Assembly (NCBI GenBank): GCA_029204225.1
Contig: CM055106.1
Coordinates: forward strand, 50,351,325-50,415,324
DNA length: 64,000 nucleotides
Origin: Diphasiastrum complanatum
Lineage: Eukaryota > Streptophyta > Lycopodiopsida > Lycopodiales > Lycopodiaceae
Reading direction: 5' to 3'
The notes under the pieces were generated by a model. That model worked only from the letters and a program-made list of their open reading frames with translations. It did not search any database and was not told the DNA's origin. The translations under genes were made by a program, and so were the position numbers. Of the stretch, positions 16,701 through 37,700 are shown in pieces (position 1 is the first letter of the stretch; every line of letters starts with the position of its first letter).

Positions 16701-19700
16701 TGTTGCCTCCACCATACGCACCTCCCCCAATCTGCACTTCCTCCAAATCCGAACTCCCCCAGCTGCCACCTCCCTCATCTACAGCCTACCCCAGGTCGCA
16801 CCTCCCCTTTTAAGAAAAATTCCTGAAATTTTTATTTGCTGCCGCCTACCTGTTTCTGCCCTCCTCAGCTACTACCTTCTCCAAATACAACCATCATGGG
16901 TTCTTCCGATGCATCCTCTTCTCACGGCAACATTCAAACTCAGCTTGATGACCATCTCATTCACATAAATCATCTCATCATTGCCCAACAAGCTATGATG
17001 ACTACGCTTCAAACTTTGCAATCCTCTATTACCGATCTATCTCTCTTCAAACTCCTCCACCACCTAACACATTACCTGATCAATGCTCTCCTTCTGCACC
17101 CGTTCCTCCCATAGTTCCACCTACACCTGTCCCTCATCGAGCCCCTCTTGTTCGTGATTTTAGGGATAAAGTCAAGTTTACTATAATGGTAAGGAGTTAC
17201 AGAATTGGTTCTTTCAAATGGAAACTTATTTTCAACTCGCTCCTCGCACTCCGACACAACAACTTCAGCTTGCTGCCTTGCATTTGTCCGGACAAGCTTT
17301 GACATGGTGGCGTACTCATCAGTCAATATTTGATACTTCTGCTACTTGGAACGAGTTCAAAGTTGCCATTCATTCTGCCATGATCGATCCAATGTGGTTT
17401 CAGTCGCAACTCGACCTCTATCGACAGCCACACAAACCGGTACACTTCTTGAATACAATGAAAAATTTGTTGAGTTTTCTTATTTGTTTTCTGATCTTCC
17501 ACTTGTATCATTGTTGGAGAGTGGTTGCAAAGCAAACATGACGTGTACATCTAACGGGGAGTAGTTCAACTAAGTTCATGAAGTCCATTACAGGTGGTAA
17601 CTTATGAAAGTACCAGGCGAATTGAAGTGGATTCAATTCAAGGAATCGACACAAGTAGAGCCAACTACTTATGAAGTACAGGTTTCTAATGTGGGTGTTG
17701 ATATATGAGATTTGATGTTGACATTTATAAATCTATTTCCTACTTATGGTTGTCATGATGGTGTTATGGATTCTTCAAGCAAAATTCTCGGTTCAGGCAA
17801 AAGTTATCATGTCTACATTATTTGATTAAGGGGGAGTCAAAGTTCTTTGATTCAAAGGAAGTCAAGGAATCGAGTGATATGTTGCACTCATGGTGGTCAC
17901 ACATATACACTAAAGAGACATGAAGAATAAAGCAAGACATTGGGAAGTCATATGAAGCAAGTTCAGATGAAAAGGATCAACATTCAAAGGAATTCTACAT
18001 CATTATTCAAAGGAAGTTCTACATCGAGTAATGAAGACGTTGAGATCAGAGTTGATCATAGATTCTACATCAGAATTGAGGATCTTCATTAGATGGGCTT
18101 CATGGATGATATACATGTCATATTTGTGCTATGCACAGTTCTTGACAATGTAAACATTAAGGAGGAGTTAATGTTCACATTACTACCCCTAATGTTGTCA
18201 TCTAGGATTAAGTAGGATTATTGAGCCGTGCCTGCGTGCTAATTCTAGGGGCCCTTACCTATACTTAGTAAAGTTAAGTTAAAATTTAGCTAGACTCAAG
18301 CTTGAGATTCTAGTGCTTGATTTGGAGCACAAGTTTTGCTATATAGGTATTGGTGCTTTTACCATATGTAGAGACATTAATTAGGTAATTGCTTTTAGAT
18401 TGCTTTTGCTTTTGGCATAAACCAAAGTCTATAAGAATATAGTGCGCCCTACCTCATAAACAGTGGGACATAGTTGGAGTTTCTCATCACTTGTGTTTTC
18501 TCTCATGTGTTTGGCTATTGGGCACTCACAACTACATCAGACAGTTCCTATACAAAGCATATTTGGGTCGAACATGGCAAGGCTACCACAACTAGACTAC
18601 TATCAGACTCACTTTTTGGAGTTCAATAGAACAGGGTTCCCAGTTTTACCACATTATTTGGATTCAGGATTATCGAATGGTCTAAGATTTGTGCTAGGCC
18701 AGATTCGAGTTTCATCACATAAGCTTGCGATTGAAACTGGACGCTTTCACAGTAGTCCACACGAGGAGTGGACTTGCCAAATGTGTTCACTATCCAAGGT
18801 GGAACCTTAAGAGCACTTCTTATTCAGATGCCCATGTATATTGTAAGATCAGAGGGAGATATCATTGCCTTTTATGAGATGCATTGAGTACTCTAAACTC
18901 CCCAAATGTTGTTGAAGAAGCTAAGAAGTCTTTCGATGAAAATCTTTAGCAACATAGCGCAGGTATGGAAACTGGCTGGCGACCTAAGAAGGACCCATAT
19001 ACTCTTGTTATTTGCTTCACATCAGTGTCTCACCGGTGTGAAGTTTTGGGGAAGCGATCTAAATTGCGGATACCAAAATCTATTTGGACGAAGATCTTAC
19101 TTTCATCCAAGTCCAAGAACATAAGAAGGCAAGACCAGAAGCTCTGTCAACTGCCAAACGGCTTATCCATCTTGATGGTATTATCAGATTTGTAGATCGT
19201 AAGCCTATAGTTAATGAGAGTCTTAACTCTGACATAGACTCTAACCTAGAGAAATGAAAAGATGTCCAGTTGAGCATGGTATGTTACACGTACCATATAA
19301 TCTTGGATATATCACTATCTTCTTAGTTAGATTTGCTTTAGTTATGTTGCTTTGACGGCACTGATCCGTCTTGTTGCCATCATATCTAATGTACTTCTTC
19401 AATTTATACGCCTTTCAACATGGAAAAGGCGTTAATAAAGCTCTCTCTCTCTCTCTCTCTCTCTCTCTCTCTCTCTCTCTCTCTCTCTCTCTCTCTCTCT
19501 CTCTCTCTCTCTCTCTCTCTCTCTCTCTCTCTCTCTCTCTCTCTCTCTCTCTCTCTCTCTCTCTCTCTCTCTCTCTCCCCGTCCCATACTGCCAGGATAG
19601 CCATACCTCATATACAGAGACATACTACACACGCTCATGCTCATAGACGACACCAGCGGGCTCCAGCACTTTCTCATGTTGCGACTCGCATTACATCTTT

Positions 19701-34700: not shown

Positions 34701-37700
34701 TGAGAAGGTCTTGGGATGTTTCCGACATAGCAGTGGCTTATCTGATCACATTTGGCGGGGGTGGCTGTAGACTTGGCACCATTCTGATTGCTGTTCTCCT
34801 TTATGCGGATGATGTAGTACTAGTATCCCCGACCAGAGAGGGTTTGCAGAGGCAGCTGGATTGTTTACAGGGATTTTGTACCAGATGGGGGTTGGGGGTG
34901 AACACTGCGAAGACCAAGGTTATGGTCTTCAACACTTCTCGAGCCTTCATGCAGCGCCAGGAGCTCATCTTAGATGGACAGGCCTTAGAGGTAGTTTCCT
35001 CTTATACCTATTTGGGGATACTCTTCTCTGGTCCTACCTTCAGCATGCGGCAAGCTGCCACCACCCGACTTGGGAAGGGGCATTCCTCTCTTGTTCAGCT
35101 TGAGCGGTTCTGTTTCAGGAAGCTCATCCGAGATGTTCGCAGTAAGTGTAGACTCTTTGATACTATTGTCACCCCCACAGCCTTATATGCAGCAGAGACA
35201 TGGTGCACCAGCCTCCCTTCATCACACTGGGCCAGCATTTCACGATTGCAGACCACCATGTTAGCCCGTATGATTCGGGCGAAGCCCTCGGTTCCACATG
35301 AGATCCTTCTTGCAGAGTTTGCCGTTCCACCCATTCAGATATATGTCGCGTTCCAGCTTATCACATACATTCAAAGAATCCAGGCTCTGCCCGATGAGGA
35401 TATGAGATATACACAGACAGCACTGGTCTCCTCACACCTTCTTCATGACCAGGGCTATCGACTATCGTGGTTCTCTCAGGCATCCCATTTCCTCCTTGAG
35501 TCATTTGGTATCTCCATTACAGAGCTCCCCTCAGGTACTCATCAGTATATCAGGCGCATCTTATATCGGGCATATCTCGACCGCACTTGGGGGCGACAGC
35601 TTGGGGTGAAACCCGGCTACTACTGGACTCATTTTATTGAGCTTGACATAGCAGGGGTCCCGGTCTTACCGCATTATTTGGACTCGAGACTATCACATTG
35701 CCTCAGATTTACATTGGGACAGCTCCGTGTATCATCACATCAGTTGGCTATTGAGACTGGTAGATTCCAGGGTACCCCGAGAGAGGAGCGGATTTGCCAG
35801 TTATGCTCTTTAGAGGAGGTGGAGTCAGAGGAGCACTTTATCTTTAGGTGCCCGGTATATTACGAGATCAGAGGGAGATACCACTGTTTGTTCCGAGACA
35901 CACCTGTCACCTTACGATCGCTCATAGCTTATGAGGATTCCCGATGCGCGGCACTCATGATACGAGAGATGTTTATACTACGACAGGATTTGTATCAGAC
36001 AGCCCAGCCGAGTCAGGTTTCTCAGCCTCAGATCACTTCTTTCTTCTCCAGGAGGAGAGGACGTTTTGATGACGGTGACGATGATGATGATGACCTACTT
36101 GCCCACAGAGACCAGAGACAGCGTCCCACACATACCCATGTTGCAGCACGAGCTACTCGACCTATCACGAGGAGACCTCTTCATCCTCTCAGACGACGTC
36201 AGAGACCACCAGTGGCCCTTCATGCCACAGGCCGTATTACATCCTTCTATATCATCAGCACCAGCAGGACAGGACTAGATGATAACGTCATATCTTACTC
36301 ATGACTGTTAGCAGTATACATGCTCCCACATGTTTCTAATAGCATCACATCTATTTCAGTTTATAGCTTTAGCTCTAGATTGCTACTTTGTTACTGTTTT
36401 GGAGACGTTTCATACGCTCCTATGGTTACCACATACTTGACATGTACATTTACTAGTCTTATATGCCTTTTGGCATGGAAAAGACATTAATAAAGCTTTC
36501 TCTCTCTCTCTCTCTCTCTCTCTCTCTCTCTCTCTCTCTCTCTCTCTCTCTCTCTCTCTCTCTCTCTCTCTCTCTCTCTCTCTCTCTCTCTCTCTCTCTC
36601 TCTCTCTCTCTCTCTCTCTCTCTCTCTCTCTCTCTCTCTCTCTCTCTCTCTCTCTCTCTCTCTCTCTCTCTCTCTCTCTCTCTCTCTCTCTCTCTCTCTC
36701 TCTCTCTCTCTCTCTCCCCTGCTCCATGGCTACCTACTCCACCGCGCCCTGCTCCGTCGCTGCACCCTGGATAACACCTTGCCCCATCGATGGCTCCATC
36801 ATTGATTGACGTTGTTGAACCTGGCCAGCGGATTGCTAGTGTACCTCCTTGCATTGCCATCTGCCAGCGGCTCCATCTTCCTATTTTCTATTTGTCAAGA
36901 TCTGAGCGCGCTCCCAGCGCTCCATCTGCCAGTTCCACATGGCTCCACGCAAGAGGGGGGAGGTAACTCCCCCCATTCTCCATCGTGCCTTGCTGGTCCA
37001 GAAACCACCTCCATCTCCGGTGGAACCCCTTCACCTTCACCATCACCTTCCATTCCGGTTGCAATCCCTATCTCTCTGTCAGATCCTATTCTAGGCAATT
37101 GTGCTTAAAGGTCCTAATACTGTTGTTCTACCACCTCCACTTTCATTTATCTCAGCTACGTTCACCGAGAGCCGTTTGCGAGAGCAAAAGGCTCTTAATG
37201 TCCGAGTCAGAGGTATTACGAACTCCCATGATGCTGTTGGTGAAGCTAAAAAGTTTCTTGAAGAGAGTCTTCAACAGCACCACAAAGATATGGATACTGC
37301 ATGGCGGCCTAAGAAAGATCCAGGTACTTTTGTCATACGCTTTGCATCTGCAACTGGTCGTCATGAAGTGCTAGGGAAGAGATCTACTTTGCGGGGAACC
37401 ACGATATACTTGGATGAAGACCTTACTTTCATTCAGGTTCAAGAACGGAAAAAAGCAAAAACAAGAGGCTCTAACGAATGGAAAGCGGTTGATCTACAGG
37501 GATGGCTCTCTCTCTCTCTCTCTCTCTCTCTCTCTCTCTCTCTCTCTCTCTCTCTCTCTCTCTCTCTCTCTCTCTCTCTCTCTCTCTCTCTCTCTCTCTC
37601 TCTCAAGCAGGTAGGATTTGTCATTTACGAACATTGGCTGAGGTGGAGGCTGAGGAGCACTTCAATTTCAAATGCCCTATCCTACCTATAGCAAGATTCA

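Follow-up and report, generated by a model that had tools for sequence, protein, structure and literature searches.

Organisation of the LINE array

The DNA analysed here, referred to as the window, is a stretch of 64,000 nt from the lycophyte Diphasiastrum complanatum (GCA_029204225.1, CM055106.1, positions 50,351,325-50,415,324, forward strand). The assembly also contains near-duplicate unplaced contigs, which are probable haplotigs. An initial annotation of this DNA described a plus-strand array of LINE copies split by TC tracts, and the array is real, consisting of 11 LINE pieces, plus-strand throughout, with pyrimidine tracts between them and perfect (TC)n at 9 of its 10 joints. Perfect (TC)n tracts in the window number 11, range from 54 to 218 bp and always read TC on the plus strand, never GA, with 10 falling within 19441-37604. 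Outside the array, a (CT)27 tract (16157..16210) has what reads as a gypsy-like gag piece on one side and different repeat DNA on the other, with no adjoining LINE match.

The array opens with a LINE 3' part (18500..19440, best matches 70-71%) bearing a variant hairpin and TTAATAAAG at its end, the latter being one of 9 such 3' ends inside the array. A (CT)68 tract (19441..19577) leads to a 5'-truncated 3' fragment with the 3' signature (19578..19894, 94.6% to L003), followed by (TC)53 (19895..20000) and a 5'-truncated copy comprising the RT region and 3' signature (20001..22710). The next 5'-truncated copy (22719..23972, 71%) is preceded by a pyrimidine stretch of only about 18 bp and followed by (TC)48 (23973..24068). 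A LINE of another subfamily (24069..27162), with remains of ORF1 and endonuclease by reading, stops at TC ~155 bp before the family 3' end seen in L010, L015 and L047, and lacks the GCACCC-GGGTGC hairpin present in the last ~155 bp of those three. Beyond (TC)55 (27163..27272) a 5'-truncated copy extends from part of the RT through the 3' signature (27273..29066, 84% to L017), and (CT)48 (29067..29163) precedes an ORF1-only copy (29164..30722) with a leader, an L1-ORF1p-like ORF1 (to 30495) and the 3' signature, but without ORF2. A (CT)29 tract (30723..30780) and a short 3' fragment (30781..30955) follow, the 3' signature of the latter being doubled in tandem as a 77-bp unit (30818-30972).

Next comes a young copy with interrupted frames (31432..36498), encoding ORF1 (32256-32741), an APE-type endonuclease (32742-33788), RT in two different frames (33706-34770 and 34691-36304) and a C-terminal CxxC-H-C stretch. 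Its 3' end (36457..36498) forms a two-stem hairpin, GTCTT..ATGCC-TTTT-GGCAT..AAGAC, followed by ATTAATAAAGCT, and the copy also has an AATAAA. The reading that this young copy sits between older ones was dropped, as the ages of its neighbours are uncertain, their lower best matches coming from loci picked via the young family's 3' end. A (TC)109 tract (36499..36716) separates the young copy from a leader and ORF1 piece (36717..37505), which halts at a (CT)49 tract (37506..37604) and is, with the 24069-27162 copy, one of two array members ending at TC without a 3' end. The last piece (37605..37700) is part of an ORF2 C-terminus without a 3' end, and it matches other pieces of the window at 75-79% across 47-64 bp.

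Every start point had initially been placed directly after a pyrimidine tract. This holds at 19577/8, 20001, 22719, 24069, 27273, 29164, 30781 and 36717, with homology backing 19578, 27273 and 30781, while 20001, 24069, 29164 and 36717 are placed by reading, none of the fetched relatives beginning there. The 37605 start is anomalous, the preceding ORF1 piece having no 3' end, and 31432 is ruled out as an insertion start. The (CT)29 tract before 31432 (31374..31431) is internal to a leader (31049..31373, 98.8% to L051) and not an insertion junction, because the same leader and CT tract recur in three other young copies, with leader identity of 97-99% over 325 (L051), 243 (L056) and 320 bp (L058), as far as fetched. 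This longer form begins at about 31049, directly after a (TC)28 tract (30992..31048), and its outer start is also TC-preceded in L051, L058 and L067, the last with a different left flank.

Encoded proteins and LINE class

The element is an APE-type LINE, in which an endonuclease/exonuclease/phosphatase domain precedes the non-LTR RT and the 3' end is constant in 20 young copies, 10 of them 5'-truncated at different points. Pfam detects Exo_endo_phos (1.5e-11) and RVT_1 (1.5e-8) in neighbouring pieces, although the endonuclease has no PDB sequence match at 0.01. An RT profile matches R2 best in the PDB (156 bits), then L1 ORF2p (134 bits), an order by which the RT is no more than a candidate member of the L1/Tx1 clade. 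RT relatives with 42-58% identity are present in the ferns Ceratopteris and Adiantum.

By sequence, ORF1 (from an alignment leaving out L012) has neither a PDB match nor an above-chance Pfam match. Its AlphaFold model (mean pLDDT 73) is nevertheless predicted to fold like human L1 ORF1p, which occupies all six best Foldseek rows (best E 1.9e-5). VIA-align puts ordinary RRMs (Z 8.0) level with the best hit (Z 8.4), so likeness beyond a common RRM is indicated by Foldseek and the C-terminal part. The modelled order of an RRM followed by a C-terminal domain would place the protein with those of the L1/Tx1 group.

The 3' hairpin and tail

The end of the RNA is marked by the two-stem 3' hairpin, which shows compensatory changes. 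In an alignment of 14 variants chosen for difference (13 from 31 listed and one at window position 23931, the aberrant end at 19404-19440 being left out), 95.7% of 140 cells are paired, against 34-59% in slid versions, and 4 of 10 pairs are changed on both sides. Further pair types, one of five measures, do not stand out from shuffles (9 against 8.1). Beyond the hairpin, most tails follow one pattern, C(TTTC)n(TC)m, and some of this sequence therefore surely comes from the element.

Young copies and their junctions

The family is young, abundant and recently active, its 41-base 3' signature having 2,412 exact occurrences genome-wide. At least 40 young copies match the last 241 bp at 99-100%; these are the 40 that were scored among 1,628 candidates, and they are spread over 20 contigs. 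Twenty of them (list rows 2-21, in list order), on 12 contigs, were examined. On the 3' side, the tail contains a TC run 10-327 bp long in 19/20, the exception being L047, whose tail is of TTTC type only. Of 19 readable 5' sides (the outer start of L036 was not fetched), TC adjoins 14, counting L033 with 5 bp between; in 7 of these 14 the 5' end lies at the leader's internal TC, and in L031 and L038 the fetched stretch opens within a TC tract, so that their TC could be element-derived. One further copy follows (TC)n(AT)n and four (L030, L032, L040 and L048) start in non-TC DNA. In nine copies the middle was unfetched and the pairing of 5' start with 3' end rests on distance, while target-site duplications are unreadable within TC. 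Both junctions thus lie in TC in most young copies, as in target-specific LINEs.

Ten of the young copies have varied internal starts, although one 3' end is common to all 20. An element truncated internally cannot itself provide TC at its 5' end; nonetheless, among these ten, TC is found there in five and a compound repeat in one. By comparison, a TC run of at least 10 bp ends within 8 bp upstream of 675/400,000 positions (0.17%) in 20 sampled 10-kb loci, both strands, and against this background the probability of 12 or more of 20 is 7e-29. Compound microsatellites also occur on the 3' side, where tails continue into (AT)n in L030-L032, of which L031 and L032 have a common right flank, and into (AC)n in L036 and L040, together 5/20.

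Arrays are found elsewhere in the genome. Another LINE's 3' end lies directly ahead of the 5' TC tract in 5 young copies (17 left flanks looked at), and LINE sequence lies within ~160 bp beyond the 3' tract in 6/20 (in L044, one piece is further away), giving 10/20 young copies in arrays. Others, for example L029/L049 and L037/L057, have TC at each end and lie in non-LINE DNA.

In a chromosome-1 sample, 25/28 exact-signature copies have a TC run of at least 8 bp past the 3' end, the exceptions being L001, L002 and L027. Genome-wide, (TC)6 lies within 8 bp of 968/2,407 forward occurrences of GACATTAATAAAGCT, a forward-only count from which the reverse figure of 3,358 was left out owing to overlapping gap variants. 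The 5' starts of older chromosome-1 copies are uncounted, being often unplaceable because homology fades, with clear TC starts in L011, L017, L019, L025 and L026 and clear non-TC starts in L022, L015 and L027. The early expectation that copies elsewhere would likewise start at TC therefore holds for the 14 young copies, but fails for 4/19 and for several older ones.

Empty sites

A comparison with empty sites, proposed at the outset, is provided by one insertion locus. Empty sites devoid of TC would have spoken against the initial annotation, and at this locus the outcome was the opposite. The filled site L049/L029 sits in a repeated LTR, and in L006 and L020 a TC run joins its two flanks. All 40 scored joined-flank matches (of 1,955 candidates) span the joint within 283 bp, and among 12 further fetched paralogues the joint holds a CT run in 10, a remnant in one and none in one. 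These sites are paralogous, not allelic. At this locus, the TC was a target present beforehand and not merely a tail, since the uninterrupted run stands in 10/12 empty paralogues.

Origin of the TC tracts and arrays

Very probably, the D. complanatum element, an APE-type LINE with an L1-ORF1p-like ORF1, inserts into TC/GA microsatellites and thereby gives nested head-to-tail arrays. The LINE endonuclease would nick the GA strand within a TC run, and the freed (GA)n-3'OH may serve as primer for reverse transcription of the LINE RNA (TPRT), starting in its pyrimidine 3' end at a point just beyond the recognised hairpin (...AAUAAAGC(UUUC)n). The C(TTTC)n(TC)m pattern of the tail would come from slippage, and the 5' end would be rejoined into upstream TC, or into non-TC DNA if the second cut fell outside the run. 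As TC has polarity, all copies in one run would point the same way, and as TC would be left on both sides, every copy would be flanked by fresh targets and nested arrays would form. The initial proposal of a plant LINE whose leftover TC serves as new target is supported by the arrays around half of the young copies examined. Growth in one direction, also proposed, is neither supported nor needed, as a copy inserted within TC keeps TC at each end, where either side can be hit again, and LINE sequence lies downstream of 6/20.

Were (TC)n simply the element's own 3' tail, encoded or made by RT slippage, insertion could be at random sites and arrays could arise when new copies landed by chance near old ones or when TC tracts underwent unequal exchange. 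The tail form common to most copies and the four young copies with non-TC 5' ends fit such an account, yet it is disfavoured and unlikely, since it does not account for the 5' TC of internally truncated copies, far above background, the TC run already standing in empty paralogues of one site, and the passage of a quarter of young tails into (AT)n or (AC)n, which is not expected from an element's tail. Arrays built by tandem duplication or TC-tract recombination instead of repeated insertion are less likely again; the doubled 77-bp unit fits this account, but adjacent pieces differ in subfamily and truncation point, and L029/L049 and L037/L057 have TC on both sides with non-LINE flanks.

Microsatellites are a known trouble for assembly, and unrelated LINE pieces might have been joined falsely at long TC tracts, as could be read from the two pieces that stop at TC without a 3' end and from the tract between the gypsy-like piece and other sequence. 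This is the least likely of the alternatives, given that one LTR site has the same two flanks whether filled or empty, that young copies repeat the pattern across 12 contigs, where TC tracts are mostly much shorter than long reads, and that random joins would not give a uniform orientation.

Beyond insertion into TC itself, we lean, with appreciable reserve, towards a lycophyte LINE lineage of several subfamilies with a common covarying 3' hairpin, for which the TC microsatellite is both target and insertion product. Such a lineage would seed and lengthen TC runs across the 1.7-Gb genome, forming a self-propagating target.

Comparison with known systems

We call the clubmoss element a microsatellite-specific LINE, a known kind, in a new host group. 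We know of no microsatellite-specific LINE in any land plant, and a literature search, covering parts of the sources, found none. If the reading is true, this would be the first such lineage in a land plant known to us. It would also be one way in which TC microsatellites of plants arise, and its endonuclease/RT is a candidate for work on targeted insertion.

The nearest parallel is Kibi (KibiDr1/2), which Kojima and Fujiwara in 2004 reportedly described as TC-repeat-specific and of the Tx1 group. Both are APE-type LINEs with a TC microsatellite target, but Kibi has a fish host in place of a plant, and the likeness drawn here is one of target and LINE type. We know of no 3' hairpin or array habit in Kibi. 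The initial annotation took Kibi for an insect R1-clade LINE, wrongly, KIBIDR1 and KIBIDR2 being listed as hosted by Danio rerio in the portion consulted (PMC2684134).

A simple repeat as target is also common to Togen and HERO, although HERO has a restriction-like endonuclease in place of the APE-type domain of the clubmoss LINE. NeSL relatives such as Togen have a restriction-like endonuclease. Togen, at (TG)n in fish, and some HERO families are given as microsatellite-specific in the available text (PMC4640811). Nested LINE clusters within the green lineage are represented by Zepp of Coccomyxa, for which the accessible part reports that each chromosome has a single cluster, probably centromeric (PMC3446292). 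The clubmoss LINE, in contrast, is dispersed at TC runs.

The ORF1-only copy at 29164-30722 resembles HAL1 (half-L1) of mammals, which is ORF1-only, as a single example without evidence of its own mobility. Flowering-plant L1-clade LINEs carry APE endonuclease and RT, as does the clubmoss element. According to the excerpts seen, almost all of them have a poly(A) end in place of TC, a covarying 3' stem-loop of the 'stringent' type occurs in one lineage, and those excerpts describe no TC tail or target (PMC3747384). Most descriptions of sequence-specific LINEs concern animals, according to the section available (PMC6530143). Land-plant LINEs, if our reading holds, can combine target specificity with a 'stringent' 3' end, which bears directly on Ohshima's proposal, as given in those excerpts, that the ancestral green-plant L1 had stringent 3'-end recognition (PMC3747384).

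Abundance and Coding Parts of the Family

The LINE family of the array is abundant in the 1.74-Gb genome of Diphasiastrum complanatum, with 1183 + 1229 exact occurrences of its 41-base 3′-end signature against 0 for the reversed control. The species belongs to Lycopodiopsida, and its protein O6H91_13G068200 has a 100% match across 347 aa on contig C13. A 15-mer, GACATTAATAAAGCT, occurs 2407 + 2475 times (control 3 + 1), with (TC)6 within 8 bp at 968 of the 2407 forward places. The last 241 bp of the young copy in the window have at least 40 matches at 99–100% identity, spread over 20 contigs, and the family has therefore moved recently. 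This piece is 97–99% identical to other copies over most of its length and 93% identical to locus L017 (L numbers denote genomic loci fetched from elsewhere) across the first 847 bp, while its array neighbours match the fetched copies less well. Insertion of a young copy among older ones is not proven by this comparison, the loci having been picked via the young 3′ end and the neighbours being undated. Some unplaced contigs, e.g., C3646, C1697 and C2854, are near-duplicates of chromosomal LINE loci in score and coordinates, and are probably haplotigs.

The young piece (31432–36498, + strand) contains ORF1, an APE-type endonuclease, a reverse transcriptase (RT) and a C-terminal CxxC-H-C stretch, with interrupted frames. 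An ORF1 model of 124 residues (mean pLDDT 73), built from six ORF1 pieces, has a predicted order of RRM followed by a C-terminal domain. Human LINE-1 ORF1p fills all six top Foldseek rows (best E 1.9e-5) and gives the top VIA-align Z of 8.4, tied with ordinary RRMs at 8.0. RT comparison scores are 156 bits for R2 and 134 bits for L1.

The 3′ End and Its Junctions

A hairpin, GTCTT..(ATGCC-loop-GGCAT)..AAGAC, fits 14 variants of the 3′ end. Pairing holds in 95.7% of 140 cells, compared with 34–59% in slid versions, and both-sided changes occur at 4 of 10 pairs, which shuffles match 4 times in 500, while the number of further pair types among the 14 variants is not above that of the shuffles; the variants are mutually related, so these controls serve as guides only. 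Downstream, most copies continue as ATTAATAAAG-C(TTTC)n(TC)m, and hairpin and tail together form the anatomy of ‘stringent’ LINEs.

Junctions were read in 20 of the 40 young matches (rows 2–21, in list order). The tail holds a TC run of 10–327 bp in 19 of these, L047 having none. In the chromosome-1 sample, a TC run of at least 8 bp lies behind the 3′ end in 25 of 28 exact-signature copies, that of L013 coming after an interrupted TTTA/TTTC stretch; L001, L002 and L027 lack such a run. In its place L002 has a TTC run, L001 and L047 a TTTC run, (TTTC)n, and L027 none, and relaxed priming on other pyrimidine runs is possible in these four copies.

TC Runs Present Before Insertion

The 3′ TC passes directly into (AT)n (L030, L031, L032) or (AC)n (L036, L040) in five of the 20 young copies, i.e., these are compound microsatellites; L031 and L032 share a right flank. 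The host of copy L049/L029 is taken for an LTR from its sequence, the right flank leading into TGGTATCAGAGC, presumably a primer-binding site. In two incidentally found paralogues, L006 and L020, only a TC tract (54 and 81 bp, respectively) separates the flanks of this copy, and when the joined flanks were compared with the genome, all 40 scored of 1,955 candidates spanned the joint within 283 bp. A CT run separates the flanks in 10 of 12 fetched empty paralogues, usually as TTGCTG-TTTT(CT)n-T-AGAGTTGGGC; L078 retains a remnant, TCTCTCTT, and L083 has lost the run. The initial annotation had insertion depend on a TC run, and the empty paralogues of this one locus bear it out. If the site that was hit resembled them, a run of 10–16 bp suffices as target.

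The 5′ Junctions

The 5′ start is readable in 19 of the 20 young copies, the leader start of L036 lying beyond the fetched stretch; nine (L029, L031, L034–L038, L044, L045) were fetched at their two ends without the middle, 5′ start and 3′ end being paired by distance. TC abuts the 5′ end in 14 of the 19 (L029, L031, L033 with 5 bp between, L034, L035, L037, L038, L041–L047). L039 adjoins a (TC)n(AT)n compound repeat, while L030, L032, L040 and L048 begin in other DNA. In seven copies (L029, L034, L037, L041, L043, L044, L045) the 5′ end lies at the TC tract within the leader, 31374–31431 in the window, and the clean test is thus the 10 copies truncated inside the element: five at TC (L033, L035, L042, L046, L047), one at the compound repeat and four without TC. 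Five of 10 is far above chance, the background being 0.17% of positions (TC run of at least 10 bp ending at most 8 bp upstream; 20 sampled 10-kb loci, both strands). In L031, L036 and L038 the window's leader precedes the internal CT tract, its own start following TC in L031 and L038 (11 and 14 bp, the tract cut by the end of the fetched stretch). Beyond this sample, truncated L011, L019, L025 and L026 begin at TC or at most 15 bp from it. At L026 (6800–6890, oriented), GCAACTGG stands ahead of the 5′ TC tract and repeats, with TCTCTA, between tract and LINE start, possibly a target-derived duplication.

The Array and Its Growth

All 11 perfect (TC)n tracts in the window (C15:50351325–50415324) read TC on the + strand, and the 11 LINE pieces of 18500–37700 are likewise all on the + strand. 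Nine of the 10 joints between pieces are perfect (TC)n and the remaining one, before 22719, is ~18 bp of pyrimidines. The head-to-tail arrangement at TC joints described in the initial annotation thus stands, except that one further tract is internal to a leader and hence no joint. Elsewhere, 10 of the 20 young copies lie within arrays. A LINE 3′ end is directly ahead of the 5′ TC in five (L034, L041, L043, L045, L047; 17 left flanks viewed), and LINE sequence follows soon after the 3′ TC in six of 20 (L030, L031, L032, L035, L041, L044). Growth in one direction, as originally proposed, is not required, because insertion in the polarity of TC leaves TC on both sides, which explains order and orientation.

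Several pieces are irregular. The copies at 24069–27162 and 36717–37505 stop at a TC tract without their own 3′ end, which may reflect deletion, internal priming or misjoining; in the former the missing part is ~155 bp, present in L010, L015 and L047. The 29164–30722 copy consists of leader, ORF1 and 3′ signature without ORF2, resembling mammalian half-L1 elements. A 77-bp 3′-end unit is exactly doubled at 30818–30972, a CCCT-type tail behind each unit, and a stretch without LINE match (21045–21385) seemingly splits the RT region of the 20001–22710 copy. Outside the array, (CT)27 at 16157–16210 is bordered on one side by a gypsy-like gag piece and on the other by different repeat sequence; no LINE match adjoins it, and it is possibly a target that is still empty.

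Mechanism and Known Relatives

This is an element with a TC target, a 3′ RNA structure, truncated copies and recent activity, and a LINE inserting into TC/GA microsatellites is very probably the overall explanation. The GA strand would be nicked inside the TC run, and (GA)n-3′OH would prime on the pyrimidine end of the LINE RNA, with slippage; the 5′ end would then be joined within TC, and a second cut falling now and then outside the run would produce the four non-TC 5′ ends.

Kibi is a LINE specific for TC. Its host is zebrafish (PMC2684134), which corrects its initial description as an insect element. Other animal LINEs specific for microsatellites include Togen, whose target is (TG)n, and part of the HERO families (PMC4640811). 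Flowering-plant L1 LINEs are described as ending mostly in poly(A), with one lineage carrying a stem-loop (PMC3747384). The available sections of a 2025 review of transposable element localisation in plants give a general association with microsatellites and name no specific LINE (PMC12477314). As a kind, the microsatellite-specific LINE is already known, in animals.
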